Shown here: in pieces, positions 542 through 16,083 of the stretch
How the letters are laid out: each line of letters begins with the position of its first letter
How positions within the stretch are numbered: the first letter of the stretch is position 1
NCBI GenBank assembly: GCA_020541285.1
Contig: CP047043.1
Span: 310,001 to 374,000 of the forward strand
Reading direction: 5' to 3'
Source of the DNA: Candidatus Gillettellia adelgis
GTDB taxonomy: Bacteria > Pseudomonadota > Gammaproteobacteria > Enterobacterales > Enterobacteriaceae
DNA: 64,000 nt
Position numbers and translations under genes: made by a program
The notes under the pieces: model-generated
Told to the model about the DNA's origin: nothing
The model's database searches: none
What the model saw: the letters and a program-made list of their open reading frames with translations, nothing else

Positions 542-1504
542 TTATTTTCTATTACGCATAGATATTTCCCCGTTAATAAACGAGCTAATAACACCGTGTT
601 GATCAAGTAATAAAGCCCCTTGTCGATCGATACCTCTAGCAATACCAAAGATATACTGTGCGCCAATAAGTAATTGAACCGGCCGATTAATAAAATTATC
701 CAACAAGTGCCAACGTGCTATAAATGAAGATAACCCATTAGTTTCAAGTTGTTTTAGAGATTTTCTAAGCTCATTAAGTAAAGTTGCGGTTAGTTCATTG
801 CGATCAATGCTAATGCCTGCGTCCTTTAAGTTTGCCCACTTCTGATTAATGGCACTAGCATGATTATTATGCATGGTTAGATTGATGCCTACTCCTATTA
901 CAATGTGGGTTAAAGCATCAGTTTTTTTAATCATTTCGACTAGTATACCAGCTAATTTTCGATCATTAAGATATAAATCATTGGGCCATTTTACTCGCAC
1001 ATCCTTAGCGCCTAAACGTTGTAAGACTTCAGCTACTACAACACCAATGACTAAACCTAATCCTACAGCCGCAGTAAGTTCTTGTGCGAAATTCCAGTAA
1101 ATTGATAGATACAAATTAGCACCAAACGGTGAGATCCACTTCCGCCCGCGCCGACCCCGTCCAGTCTGTTGATACTCAGCAACACAAGCATCACCAGACT
1201 GAAGTTTATACATATAATCTAGCAAATATTGATTAGTTGAATTCACTACCGATAATATAGTCACACGTTTGTCTTCTAACAGATTAAGGATACGATCAGC
1301 TTTTAATAATTGAAGTGAAGATGTAAGCTTATATCCTTTACCTAATATGGCAGATATATTTACGCCCCACTTACGGAGGGTCTGAATATGCTTATAAATT
1401 ATTTCTGGACGTATAGATAACGATGCACTAAGTTTTTTTTCTGAATAAGTACCACCATCAGCTAATAACGTAATCAGTTTTAACGGAATCTTATTATCTT
1501 TTAT
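542..1504 (-). CDS. birA: Biotin-protein ligase BirA with non-ATG (AUA) start
   Basis: BirA makes biotinyl-AMP and attaches biotin to the AccB carrier protein; in E. coli it also represses bio genes. The first in-frame ATG (1264) would drop the winged-helix domain, yet the frame upstream is intact. From the ATA at 1504-1502 it reads IKDNKIPLKLITLLADG, aligning residue for residue with E. coli MKDNTVPLKLI. Full length is then 320 residues, against 321 in E. coli. The HTH (KHIQTLRKWGV) spans residues ~20-50, GRGRRGRKW lies near 115 and KWPNDL and RKLAGILVE follow. A Shine-Dalgarno sequence AGAGGTG ends five bases before the ATA. The ATA shares bases with murB's TAA, so translation is probably coupled to murB. 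The start is inferred; the identity is certain. Confidence 0.93.
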   Translation of the reverse strand: MKDNKIPLKLITLLADGGTYSEKKLSASLSIRPEIIYKHIQTLRKWGVNISAILGKGYKLTSSLQLLKADRILNLLEDKRVTILSVVNSTNQYLLDYMYKLQSGDACVAEYQQTGRGRRGRKWISPFGANLYLSIYWNFAQELTAAVGLGLVIGVVVAEVLQRLGAKDVRVKWPNDLYLNDRKLAGILVEMIKKTDALTHIVIGVGINLTMHNNHASAINQKWANLKDAGISIDRNELTATLLNELRKSLKQLETNGLSSFIARWHLLDNFINRPVQLLIGAQYIFGIARGIDRQGALLLDQHGVISSFINGEISMRNRK

Positions 1505-2538
1505 GATAGCACCTCTACCGAATTTAATTCACCCCTTGCAGCAATAAAACGCACCTCAGGTTCAAGCCATATGTTGAATTTATCTGCAACGGTATTGCGC
1601 ACGTAACGTGCTAGGATGACGATATCCTGGCTAGTAGCATTATGTACGTTGACTAATACTAACGGCTGATAAGGATATACAGCAGCTCCGCCTACCCGAT
1701 ATCCTTTTAACTGGCATTGATCGATGAGCCAACTTGCAGATAACTTAATACATCCATTTGTTTGTAGATAATTCGGGATATTTGGATATTGAGAGATCAG
1801 TTCTTTAGATTGTTCGAGACTTACTAATGGATTTTTAAAAAAGCTACCAGCATTCCCTATTTTGTGGTGATTTGGTAACTTACTGCGACGCATAGCACAG
1901 ACAGCATTGAATATCTGAGTTGGTGTAACGGTTGCTGGATTTAACTGCGTTAAAGATCCGTATTTAAGCGTAGGTCGCCATTTTTTTCTTAAATGTAAGC
2001 CAAAACCAACAATGATATATCCAGTTTGAAACTGATGTTTAAAGATACTATCTCGGTAACCAAATCCGCACTGAGCTGCTGGGATACGATTAACAGTACC
2101 AGTAAAAAAATCTAAAAGATCAACATATTCGCAAACGTTGTGCAGTTCAATTCCATAAGCACCGATATTTTGAATAGGAGCAGACCCTACTAAACCGGGA
2201 ATTAATGCTAAGTTTTCTAAACCTCCAATACCAGCTTTAAGGGTGTAGCAGACTAGATTGTGCCAATTTTCACCAGCGCTAACATGAAGGTGCCATGTAT
2301 CCTTTTTTTCTCTGATATAAATGCCTTTTAAATGATTAATCATTACGGTACCGGCAAAGTTTTCAAGAAATAGTACGTTACTTCCCTCACCAAGAATTAG
2401 TAGTGGTGTTTGATGCTTTTGTGTTTTTTGCCAAACTTTAAGCATTAATTCTATTCTATCTGCGATCACTAGATGTGCCGTGTTAACTAGGAGTGCAAAA
2501 GTATTATGATGCTTTAAAGATACGCCTTCAATGGACAT
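1501..2538 (-). CDS. murB: UDP-N-acetylenolpyruvoylglucosamine reductase
   Basis: MurB is the cytosolic FAD enzyme that reduces UDP-GlcNAc-enolpyruvate to UDP-MurNAc with NADPH, the second committed step of peptidoglycan synthesis. From the start chosen it has 345 residues, against 342 in E. coli. The FAD-binding segment GEGSNVLFL lies near residue 50, IPGLVGSAPIQNIGAYG near 113-129, and GNAGSFFKNP near 228-237 contains the catalytic serine. LEPEVRF is present near the C-terminus. An upstream ATG at 2571 is in frame, but 2538 gives the family N-terminus (short lead into SLKHHNTF). The stop TAA overlaps the birA start region as ATAA, where E. coli has ATGA. All key residues are kept. Confidence 0.96.
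   Translation of the reverse strand: MSIEGVSLKHHNTFALLVNTAHLVIADRIELMLKVWQKTQKHQTPLLILGEGSNVLFLENFAGTVMINHLKGIYIREKKDTWHLHVSAGENWHNLVCYTLKAGIGGLENLALIPGLVGSAPIQNIGAYGIELHNVCEYVDLLDFFTGTVNRIPAAQCGFGYRDSIFKHQFQTGYIIVGFGLHLRKKWRPTLKYGSLTQLNPATVTPTQIFNAVCAMRRSKLPNHHKIGNAGSFFKNPLVSLEQSKELISQYPNIPNYLQTNGCIKLSASWLIDQCQLKGYRVGGAAVYPYQPLVLVNVHNATSQDIVILARYVRNTVADKFNIWLEPEVRFIAARGELNSVEVLS
1510..1516 (-). promoter_or_regulatory. birA: Shine-Dalgarno for birA, AGAGGTG, deciding an AUA start
   Basis: AGAGGTG sits inside the last codons of murB, five bases before the ATA codon that occupies the position of E. coli BirA's initiator ATG. It favours initiation at 1504 over the internal ATG at 1264. Confidence 0.6.
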
Positions 2539-2571: not shown

Positions 2572-5304
2572 TCATAGCTTGCATGCCAAATTGCATGTGC
2601 ATTATCTGTTTTTTGATATCAGCTATTCATTGGTGTAAGATCCTAAGAATTTTCTGCGTTGTAACCTTCCTGAAAAATCTGAATGGTTTGAGGTGCTATT
2701 TACATTGTATTAAAGTGTAATAAATACACTATATTCAATGTATTAGAAGTTGTATATGCAGCGTTTAGAATTTATCGTATATTTCTCGCTGATTTTCTAT
2801 CAAATTTTAATAATGTTGGCATTAATAGGAAGTTTCTGACTTTGCTACAATACTACTGTAAAGAATGAAACAACAGTTATTGATTATTTATTGATCACTT
2901 ATATCATCTTGCATGTAGTTTTGTGACTTGTATTATATTAACAAGATTCATGTATTGAATACGCTCCATATTTCTAGTTGTTTTAGTTTTGATAAACTTA
3001 AAAAAATATTTCATTTTTATGAATTATATATATGTAATTATACGAGGTGGCTATTATAAGTCAAACCATTATAATGAATGCGTTACGTACGATCCGAGCG
3101 GAATGGCGGATATTTATGATGATATCTGATTAGTTTAATGCTCATGCGTGTACCTAAAAAATATTAACTATGAGGTAGTTAATAGGTTTTGTAGTGTATA
3201 CTACACTTAACCGGATTTTAGAGTGATGGTTTTATTTCTCAGCTTGAGCTCGTTAGTATTGGGCATTTGTTGATAAACTAGTGAATAAAGTCTAAAAAAA
3301 TACAGATCCCGAGCACTTATATCGGAATTATAGCCTTAAAAGTTAGTAACATCACGCTATATCTTTGGTTGGATATTAAATTTGAAGGACGCGGCCATAC
3401 AGTAAAATGGTTTATAAAAAATTATGTGTTATTAGTAGAAATCGGTATCACTGCACTTAGGGAATTCTTCCTAGTTATTTAATGAGTTCACGATCAATTT
3501 CTAAAATAATTTAAAAGATATGAAAAGTAGACATTAAACACCACAACCGTGAGCGCAATGACATTGAACTGAATCTGTATCTGTTAATACTATAACGTTT
3601 ATATACGATATGCGATTATTGATAATATTATGGTCTTTGTGCTTGGTAAATTAAAGTAGTGGCACTAAAGGTAACACACTCTGGATAAATATTACATTTA
3701 TAAAATTATAGAGAAAGTTATATGCATTGGCTGTAATGACATTACCATAAAGCAGTTAGCAAGCTTGCTCTTGAATGATAAAGGGAATTTTCTTAGAGTG
3801 GTTATTATTTCTTGAAGATAAACATTCATGCTTATAGCAAAGTAAATCAATGAATTAAAATAAATAATATACACTTAAAAGAATGATTATGATCTTAATG
3901 TTTTTGCGTTATTTTGGTAGTTAATGCGTGTATCATCCGATACTTAATGATGCAGAGAGGCTAGTTTTAATATATAGTATAGGGCCTTCCTGATAACAGC
4001 ATCAGGCTGATAAGCCTGCATTTCTAAACTTACTTGAATAAAAATTTTGCGATATTACCTAGAGATTGTAAAGAGACATGAAGCTTACGTAGATTATATA
4101 AAAACTGATGTATTCAGTACTGTAAAATATAATAATTAGCATTTTCTAAATCCATAATTATAGCTTACATGCGTAAGAGACCCGTAGATTGCAATCTGAA
4201 CTTGTCTTAATTGTTAAAATAAGGTTACACAAAAATACGATTTTTTGCTAATCTTATAATATCTATAGGCCTAATGTGTAGGGGTATTTTTCAAATGCCA
4301 GCTGTATTTACTGAGAAGTTAAGGAACGTAGCAATATTGATCTCATGAGATTTATCTATAATTTTAAAGACGCTATAAATGATCCGAGCGTTTTACAGAT
4401 GACTTTTTAGTAAACATTTAGAGATGAGAGCGGCCATCCTTGTCTTTTATTTTACAAGTCTCAAAATATAGTAATAAGATGACATTTTCATCCAAAATTA
4501 TATTAAATATTGCGATTATTATTGAGCTGCAATATATTATATATTATGGATATACATTATTAACTATAGTAGAGTCTACCCGTAAGCCAGGTAGAATAGT
4601 TAATAATATAGATCTATATCTATTTTACATAGATATATTATGTCCAACAACATCAGTATGCGCATTAGCGTGAGTATGTAATACATTTACACATACGCTC
4701 ATGATATTACCATTAGTGTAACAGTATCATGCAATAGCTCTATGAGCTTAGAAGTAGACTCCGTGCCAACCGCAGGCTATGTAAAAAGTTATACTACATC
4801 GGCAGTCGGTATCACTTGTCCTGTCAACAAGACTATTTTCCTAATTAAGATGTTTAATATAGCTACGCCTTGCACGTAAGCTTATTACATCCGCTGTATA
4901 AAATAACAAAGTATACTCTAATATCACTAGATCACTATTTGTGTACATAATTGACAAATCAAGTTTATATGTTTTAGAAATACTATTGTGCATTAATTTT
5001 ATTGATATGTGTTTGTTATGATCACTGAGGTTTATGAGGGGTCAGTGTTGTAGTAATTAGATAATCAGTTCGTCGATGTGTGTGTCAGGTTGTAATTCTA
5101 TGAAAATTTTACTTTTATATTACTCAGTAATATTCAAGGGATCGTTATGTAGCATAGTGCACTTACGATGTTACACTATTTTTAAAAACTAACAAAAGAC
5201 ATGGTTAAGAATATTTCATTCATCACAATATTGTTCATTTATAATGATACTGTAACATAAAAGCACAATACTCTGTGCAATGCTGTCATTTTGTTCATTA
5301 CTAA
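2572..5304. other. Gene-free eroded DNA between murB and gmhA
   Basis: About 2.7 kb, strongly AT-rich, with stops in all frames. The longest ORF (4440-4673) has no recognisable motif and a composition typical of random AT-rich DNA. E. coli carries an rRNA operon beyond murB; no rRNA or tRNA sequence was recognised here. A GC-rich hairpin (CAGGCT-GATA-AGCCTG, 4003-4018) is the only structure noted, with no T-run. Confidence 0.7.
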
Positions 5305-14970: not shown

Positions 14971-16083
14971 TTATAAACTTTGAGATAGCATGTTTCGATG
15001 TGTATGAATTGACATGATAATCCCAAAACCGGCCATTAAAACAATGAGTGCCGAACCACCATAGCTGACTAGAGGTAAAGGCACACCAACAATCGGCACA
15101 ATACCGCTAACCATGCCAATGTTAATGAATATATATACAAAAAGAATTAGCGTCAAGGCACCAACTATCATCCGACCGAAAGTAGTTTGTGCTTTAGTAG
15201 CAATTATTAGTCCACGAATAATGACTAATAAGTACAGTGCCAGTAGCACCAATACTCCAATTAAACCGAGTTCTTCGGCTAATACTGCAAAGATAAAGTC
15301 GGTGTGGCGTTCTGGTAAAAACTCTAACTGTGATTGAGTACCATGTAGCCAACCTTTTCCTACTAACCCACCAGAACCAATGGCAATCTTTGATTGAATG
15401 ATGTGATACCCAGAACCCAGTGGGTCTTTTTCTGGATATAGTAGCATTATTAGTCGGTCACGTTGATAGGCATGCATCAAAAAAAACCATAGAACTGGTA
15501 GAAAAGTTATTATTAGTAGAATGGTGAAAGCGATGAGCTTCCAACTGACACCAGATAGGAAGAGCACAAAAAGACCAGATATGGCGATTAGAATTGCGGT
15601 CCCTAGATCTGGTTGAGCCGCTACTAGTAAGGATGGTAAGAAGATCAGTATTAGTGCGATACTAGTATTCTTGAAGGACGGTGGACAGACATCACAATTT
15701 ATAAAACGCGCTACCATTAGCGGTACAGCAACTTTAGCGATTTCTGATGGTTGAAAACGTATAAAACCAAGATCTAACCAACGTTGTGCGCCTTTAGTGC
15801 TCTGACCGTAGACATGTACTAACATGAGTAAAATTATACAGGTTATATATAGATAAGGTGCTAAGTTTTCATACACTCGTGGCGGTATCTGTGCCATTGT
15901 GCTTAGCACAATAAGTCCGATAATGATTTGACTGAGTTTATGTTCCATCATGTCAATATCCTGGCCACTAGCGCTTAACATCACTAGCACACTGTAAAGT
16001 AGAAGAACCAAAATAAGCAATAAGAAAGTAGGATCAATATGGAACTTAACCCAGAGTGAGAGTTTTTGTTGATTTCCAGTCAT
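14971..16083 (-). CDS. rodA: Peptidoglycan glycosyltransferase RodA (SEDS family)
   Basis: RodA (MrdB) polymerises lipid II into glycan strands in the inner membrane as part of the elongasome, working with PBP2, MreBCD and RodZ. It has 370 residues, the same as E. coli, with about ten hydrophobic segments. The SEDS landmarks KGAQRWLDLG, RFQPSEIAKVAVPL, AAQPDLGTAILI, GSGGLVGKGWLHGTQSQ and LEFLPERHTDFIFAVLAEE are all intact, as is PLPLVSYGGSAL near the end. The Shine-Dalgarno sequence AGGTG precedes the ATG by about six bases. In E. coli mrdA (PBP2) lies immediately upstream in the same operon. Here the 1.6 kb upstream is gene-free, so its partner is missing from this locus. Confidence 0.97.
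   Translation of the reverse strand: MTGNQQKLSLWVKFHIDPTFLLLILVLLLYSVLVMLSASGQDIDMMEHKLSQIIIGLIVLSTMAQIPPRVYENLAPYLYITCIILLMLVHVYGQSTKGAQRWLDLGFIRFQPSEIAKVAVPLMVARFINCDVCPPSFKNTSIALILIFLPSLLVAAQPDLGTAILIAISGLFVLFLSGVSWKLIAFTILLIITFLPVLWFFLMHAYQRDRLIMLLYPEKDPLGSGYHIIQSKIAIGSGGLVGKGWLHGTQSQLEFLPERHTDFIFAVLAEELGLIGVLVLLALYLLVIIRGLIIATKAQTTFGRMIVGALTLILFVYIFINIGMVSGIVPIVGVPLPLVSYGGSALIVLMAGFGIIMSIHTHRNMLSQSL

Follow-up and report, generated by a model that had tools for sequence, protein, structure and literature searches.

The start codon of birA, ATG or GTG in the relatives compared, is replaced by ATA in the 64,000-nucleotide window analysed here, which is part of one contig of 1,413,209 bases from Candidatus Gillettellia adelgis, and full-length BirA is probably still made from this codon at a low level, with termination of murB plausibly helping, and kept as a ligase. 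On the minus strand the junction of the two genes reads GTA GAG GTG CTA TCA TAA, where TAA (1503-1501) is the murB stop, and ATA at 1504-1502 opens the birA frame ATA AAA GAT AAT AAG ATT CCG, which runs to a stop at 542 on the same strand. The ATAA junction is real in the assembly. The features of the region are listed in Table 1.

Table 1. Features of the murB-birA region (window coordinates)
Feature	Position	Strand	Remarks
ATA at the conserved birA start position	1502..1504	-	derived from ATG
TAA stop of murB, overlapping ATA as ATAA	1501..1503	-	TGA in relatives
birA frame from ATA	542..1504	-	320 aa plus stop
BirA N-terminal winged helix-turn-helix, residues 1-60	1325..1504	-	open, predicted to fold, recognition region eroded
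AGAGGTG Shine-Dalgarno of birA, within the 3' end of murB	1510..1516	-	five bases before ATA
murB	1501..2535	-	ATG at 2535 taken as start; longest ORF from 2571
GTG, birA codon 81, first canonical in-frame start	1262..1264	-	very weak Shine-Dalgarno
birA codon 98, first in-frame ATG, within the ligase domain	1211..1213	-	codon reading
coaA, 3' part, convergent to birA as in E. coli	16..501	+	ORF and comparison with E. coli

Upstream of murB, at positions 2572-5300, where rrnB is located in E. coli, the window contains no ORF of more than 77 aa, and no tRNA or Rfam matches were obtained in the window, which indicates that the rRNA operon is not located at its E. coli place.

In the first set of relatives, 39 align at the birA start, each with ATG or GTG there, and in 80 named Enterobacterales loci, a set overlapping in part with the former, the murB-birA junction is represented by ATGA (66 loci) or GTGA (14 loci); neither ATA at the birA start nor the ATAA junction was found in any of the relatives examined. 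Four Serratia symbiotica genomes belong to the named set, two of them ranking with the nearest by identity, and each of the four has ATGA. As every comparable relative possesses ATG or GTG, the ATA is a derived state seen only in this genome, and a single G-to-A change in its lineage, a transition, would be the simplest account of ATAA, in agreement with what the first-pass annotation had suggested from the window without such a comparison. The change hits two codons at the same time, at the third position of the birA start and the second position of the murB stop, which becomes TAA, and it is in keeping with the AT richness that genomes of this kind are expected to show. The presence of GTG in 14 of the 80 relatives also implies that birA tolerates weaker starts. 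In a tree of the ligase domain, S. symbiotica of Cinara cedri joins this genome with a bootstrap of 84 and the 1.2-Mb symbiont genome G029 is placed nearby, although the tree is that of one gene and does not fix the exact placement of the genome.

A codon found in no relative examined might also be an assembly or sequencing error with ATGA as the true junction, and the same assembly contains possibly erroneous single frameshifts in accA, lptD and surA, those in lptD and surA being located in A9 runs. However, consensus errors are not usually substitutions located away from long homopolymers, and a weakened start fits a protein whose recognition region is independently eroded and whose repression target is gone (see below), so that we regard an error at this position as quite improbable. 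As for the otherwise conserved genes lptD (L066 about 633-645) and surA (about 2551-2562), each split by its frameshift, and for accA, these lesions may be real or may be assembly errors; in symbionts, slippage during transcription of poly-A runs may bring such split genes back into frame.

To place the ATA among the other starts, 57 matched genes, sampling about a third of the genome, were compared with the annotated E. coli starts. In birA (ATA) and infC (ATT, ancestral) alone, no canonical start was found at the expected place or close to it, and birA was the sole sound frame among the 57 with a conserved start turned non-canonical, so that, for the part sampled, a general move to unusual start codons was rejected. 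An ATA start considered for tilS was also rejected, there being an ATG six codons earlier. In npr (L058 52-306), which overlaps rapZ and has a decayed look with 36% identity, CTG is found where E. coli has ATG.

The 320-aa translation started at ATA matches the NCBIfam BirA model NF008849 with 478 bits over residues 1-318 (cut-off 474), and E. coli BirA aligns with it from residue 1 to 318. PF03099 and PF02237 both score over their cut-offs, TIGR00121 gives 242 bits, and the ligase domain, with the GRGRRG and KWPND motifs present, is intact and conserved. No ATG, GTG or TTG occurs in the frame before codon 81, which was previously taken for an ATG at 1264 but is GTG; the first in-frame ATG, codon 98 at 1213, lies downstream of the family-invariant S89-T90-N91-Q92 and would therefore not be expected to yield a working ligase.

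The AGAGGTG motif, previously described as perfectly spaced for ATA, does lie at a workable distance, with a computed anti-Shine-Dalgarno pairing energy of -7.1 kcal/mol compared to -1.0 kcal/mol for the best site before GTG 1264. It pairs over five bases, is not extended, and forms part of murB codons, GAGGTG being found in the S. symbiotica relatives too. A conserved position, the lack of a canonical start nearby and a Shine-Dalgarno at working distance, the features by which AUA-initiated genes are recognised, are thus all found at birA. There are near-cognate neighbors in frame, namely AUC one codon upstream and AUU at codon 6, which stay candidates, but the alignment favours AUA over both. 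The computed accessibility is unfavourable, with 0.35 unpaired around AUA versus 0.46 at GTG 1264. The genome possesses an initiator tRNA with the expected body, and its infC, coding for IF3, keeps an AUU start preceded by a strong Shine-Dalgarno. Natural AUA starts are in use in S. aureus infC, ccpN and citZ, and reporters with the ccpN and citZ AUA codons reached about 10% of the AUG level, a value that rose to as much as 30% in rich medium in the case of ccpN (PMC13009471). Judged by sequence, initiation at AUA is likely and is the most economical reading for birA, and coupling of this start to murB termination is plausible. A MurB-BirA fusion produced through frameshifting was set aside as no slippery heptamer was seen in the last murB codons.

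BirA might instead be made from GTG 1264 as a ligase without the DNA-binding domain, with codons 1-80 recently dead. This GTG is the first canonical start in the frame and is situated exactly at the first ligase-domain strand (E81-87) of the predicted model, but the Shine-Dalgarno before it is very weak, its energy falling short of what a Group I internal start would call for. Codons 2-80 contain neither stops nor frameshifts, and the comparison with the free-living-sized relative G025 gave pN 0.25 and pS 0.82, a low ratio indicating that selection acted on these codons as translated sequence for most of the time since the split from G025; codons 2-21 and the ligase part are under equal constraint (pN 0.176 and 0.177). 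Both the open frame and the low pN argue against a start at GTG 1264, but if the ATA is recent, this constraint predates it and is uninformative on initiation since then.

The first-pass annotation had called the N-terminal frame fully conserved, DNA-binding domain included; the frame is open, but the domain that it encodes is not fully conserved. Nine of the 16 near-invariant residues of the helix-turn-helix are changed versus 23 of 145 downstream of codon 80 (Fisher p 0.0007, near-invariance being judged across 29 relatives), with the recognition region eroded most, and on the branch leading to the genome (fixed topology) residues 2-60 have a value of 0.72 versus 0.32 for residues 81-318, i.e. 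they evolved about two times faster. The same N-terminal regions are among the most conserved in free-living relatives. PF08279 still matches the N-terminus (27.0, cut-off 25), while TIGR00122 reaches only 47.9 (cut-off 70), and the winged helix is still predicted in the AlphaFold model with a block pLDDT of 81-93. According to the model and the alignment, the domain is predicted to fold and has probably stopped reading an operator; an eroded helix-turn-helix would in turn suit a ligase made from GTG 1264.

The earlier concern that repression of the biotin operon was at stake does not hold for this genome, and neither does the picture of BirA as a still-relevant conserved repressor, although the proposal that the protein is made from AUA was retained. 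No match to bioA was obtained in the genome, bioB gave only a weak partial match (25 bits versus a cut-off of 225) which is probably lipA, and the exact BirA operator half-sites TGTAAACC-N12-17-GGTTTACA are absent from the genome, a degenerate operator elsewhere being possible. It follows that there is no usual biotin operon left to repress. The accB, accC, accD and fabD genes are intact, and a use for the BirA ligase likely remains.

The accA gene carries a +1 frameshift at GGG (L061 about 15225-15232; G000:C1 about 635,226), which bears on the working of the BirA substrate pathway, BirA modifying the AccB subunit of the enzyme to which accA belongs. Since both accA halves are otherwise well conserved, the lesion is recent, bypassed or an error. 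It could be suggested that birA itself is becoming a pseudogene, the ATA being a lesion among many and the need for BirA small or absent: the accA frameshift, the failure to find bioA and bioB, and the visible decay of other genes of the genome would agree with that. The intact and conserved ligase domain, the four intact genes named above and the conservation of both accA halves speak for a gene in use, and ongoing loss of birA seems rather doubtful to us. As to why the whole frame would be kept once repression is gone, removal of the N-terminal domain or of the wing severely impairs the ligase activity of E. coli BirA (PMC4016012), which provides a reason to keep it and is also an argument against GTG 1264, a start that would leave a poor ligase.

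The birA gene of G029 (L043, minus strand, around 1189-1550) provides an example of the opposite outcome. Only broken remains of the N-terminal region are left there, and the protein, a shortened ligase, begins close to where the wing ends, at about residue 54, from an ATG that is new and has a Shine-Dalgarno; murB has lost its old stop and runs on slightly. Judging from the gene structure, a Group II ligase has been converted naturally into one of Group I. The bioA gene is still present in G029 despite the loss of the DNA-binding domain of BirA. As a related symbiont does without the domain, translation of the N-terminal part is not obligatory in the group, and a domain-less ligase made from GTG 1264 keeps some weight as an explanation. 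A start there would nevertheless drop helix 69-75, which G029 retains, and with the points given above we consider such an origin of BirA unlikely. Another symbiont, G015 (L015, 0.98 Mb), has kept the BirA ATG, the full frame and bioA, but its helix-turn-helix shares only 16% identity with the one of a free-living relative, so this is probably another case of a kept frame without operator reading.

Returning to low-level initiation at AUA, the course of events that we infer would begin with the G-to-A change in the murB-birA overlap, turning ATGA into ATAA in a decaying AT-rich insect symbiont resembling S. symbiotica. Ribosomes held at AGAGGUG, or just finishing murB, would then use the ordinary initiator tRNA for inefficient starts at AUA, and the output of full-length BirA would be reduced, which would be tolerable because little ligase would be needed and repression of the biotin operon is gone. 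The N-terminal domain would have stayed in frame over most of the history of the lineage, probably as a support for the active site and not as a DNA reader. It can further be imagined, with little probability in our opinion, that the AUA is kept for lowering BirA or tying it to murB termination, and that the protein is midway from repressor-ligase to plain ligase with the winged domain serving only as active-site support; one base change would then weaken a start while improving the upstream stop.

At the birA junction, AUA has taken the place of the start codon of a probably still needed gene, a clean case polarised by comparison. AUA starts are already known in bacteria, and the case leaves the understanding of initiation as it was. 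Gene callers restricted to ATG, GTG and TTG would cut 80 residues off this BirA. The case also indicates that, with the biotin operon gone, the DNA-reading part of BirA erodes even as the frame persists, with G029 having gone all the way.

Compared to E. coli MG1655, where the ATGA overlap is located at 4173082-4173085, the genes, their order, the overlap and the position of the Shine-Dalgarno within murB are the same, the difference being the G-to-A change at the base that is third in the start codon and second in the murB stop. In the close relative G029 the DNA-binding domain is likewise no longer of value, but there the domain decayed and a new ATG arose, whereas here the full frame is present with no new ATG. 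With the AUU starts of E. coli infC and pcnB (the latter as cited in PMC13009471), the birA ATA shares a near-cognate codon, the ordinary initiator tRNA and lower expression, the last two being expected rather than observed at birA; infC AUU is conserved and regulatory, in contrast to the birA ATA, which is a substitution confined to one lineage and shows no sign of being conserved. The S. aureus infC, ccpN and citZ genes are similar in that AUA replaces AUG and is accompanied by a Shine-Dalgarno, although their starts were proven by ribosome profiling and reporters (PMC13009471) and that of birA is argued from sequence. Unlike them, the birA AUA overlaps an upstream stop and its Shine-Dalgarno is not extended (PMC13009471). 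A close parallel is citZ, whose AUA is limited to one strain lineage of S. aureus (PMC13009471), just as that of birA is limited to one genome.
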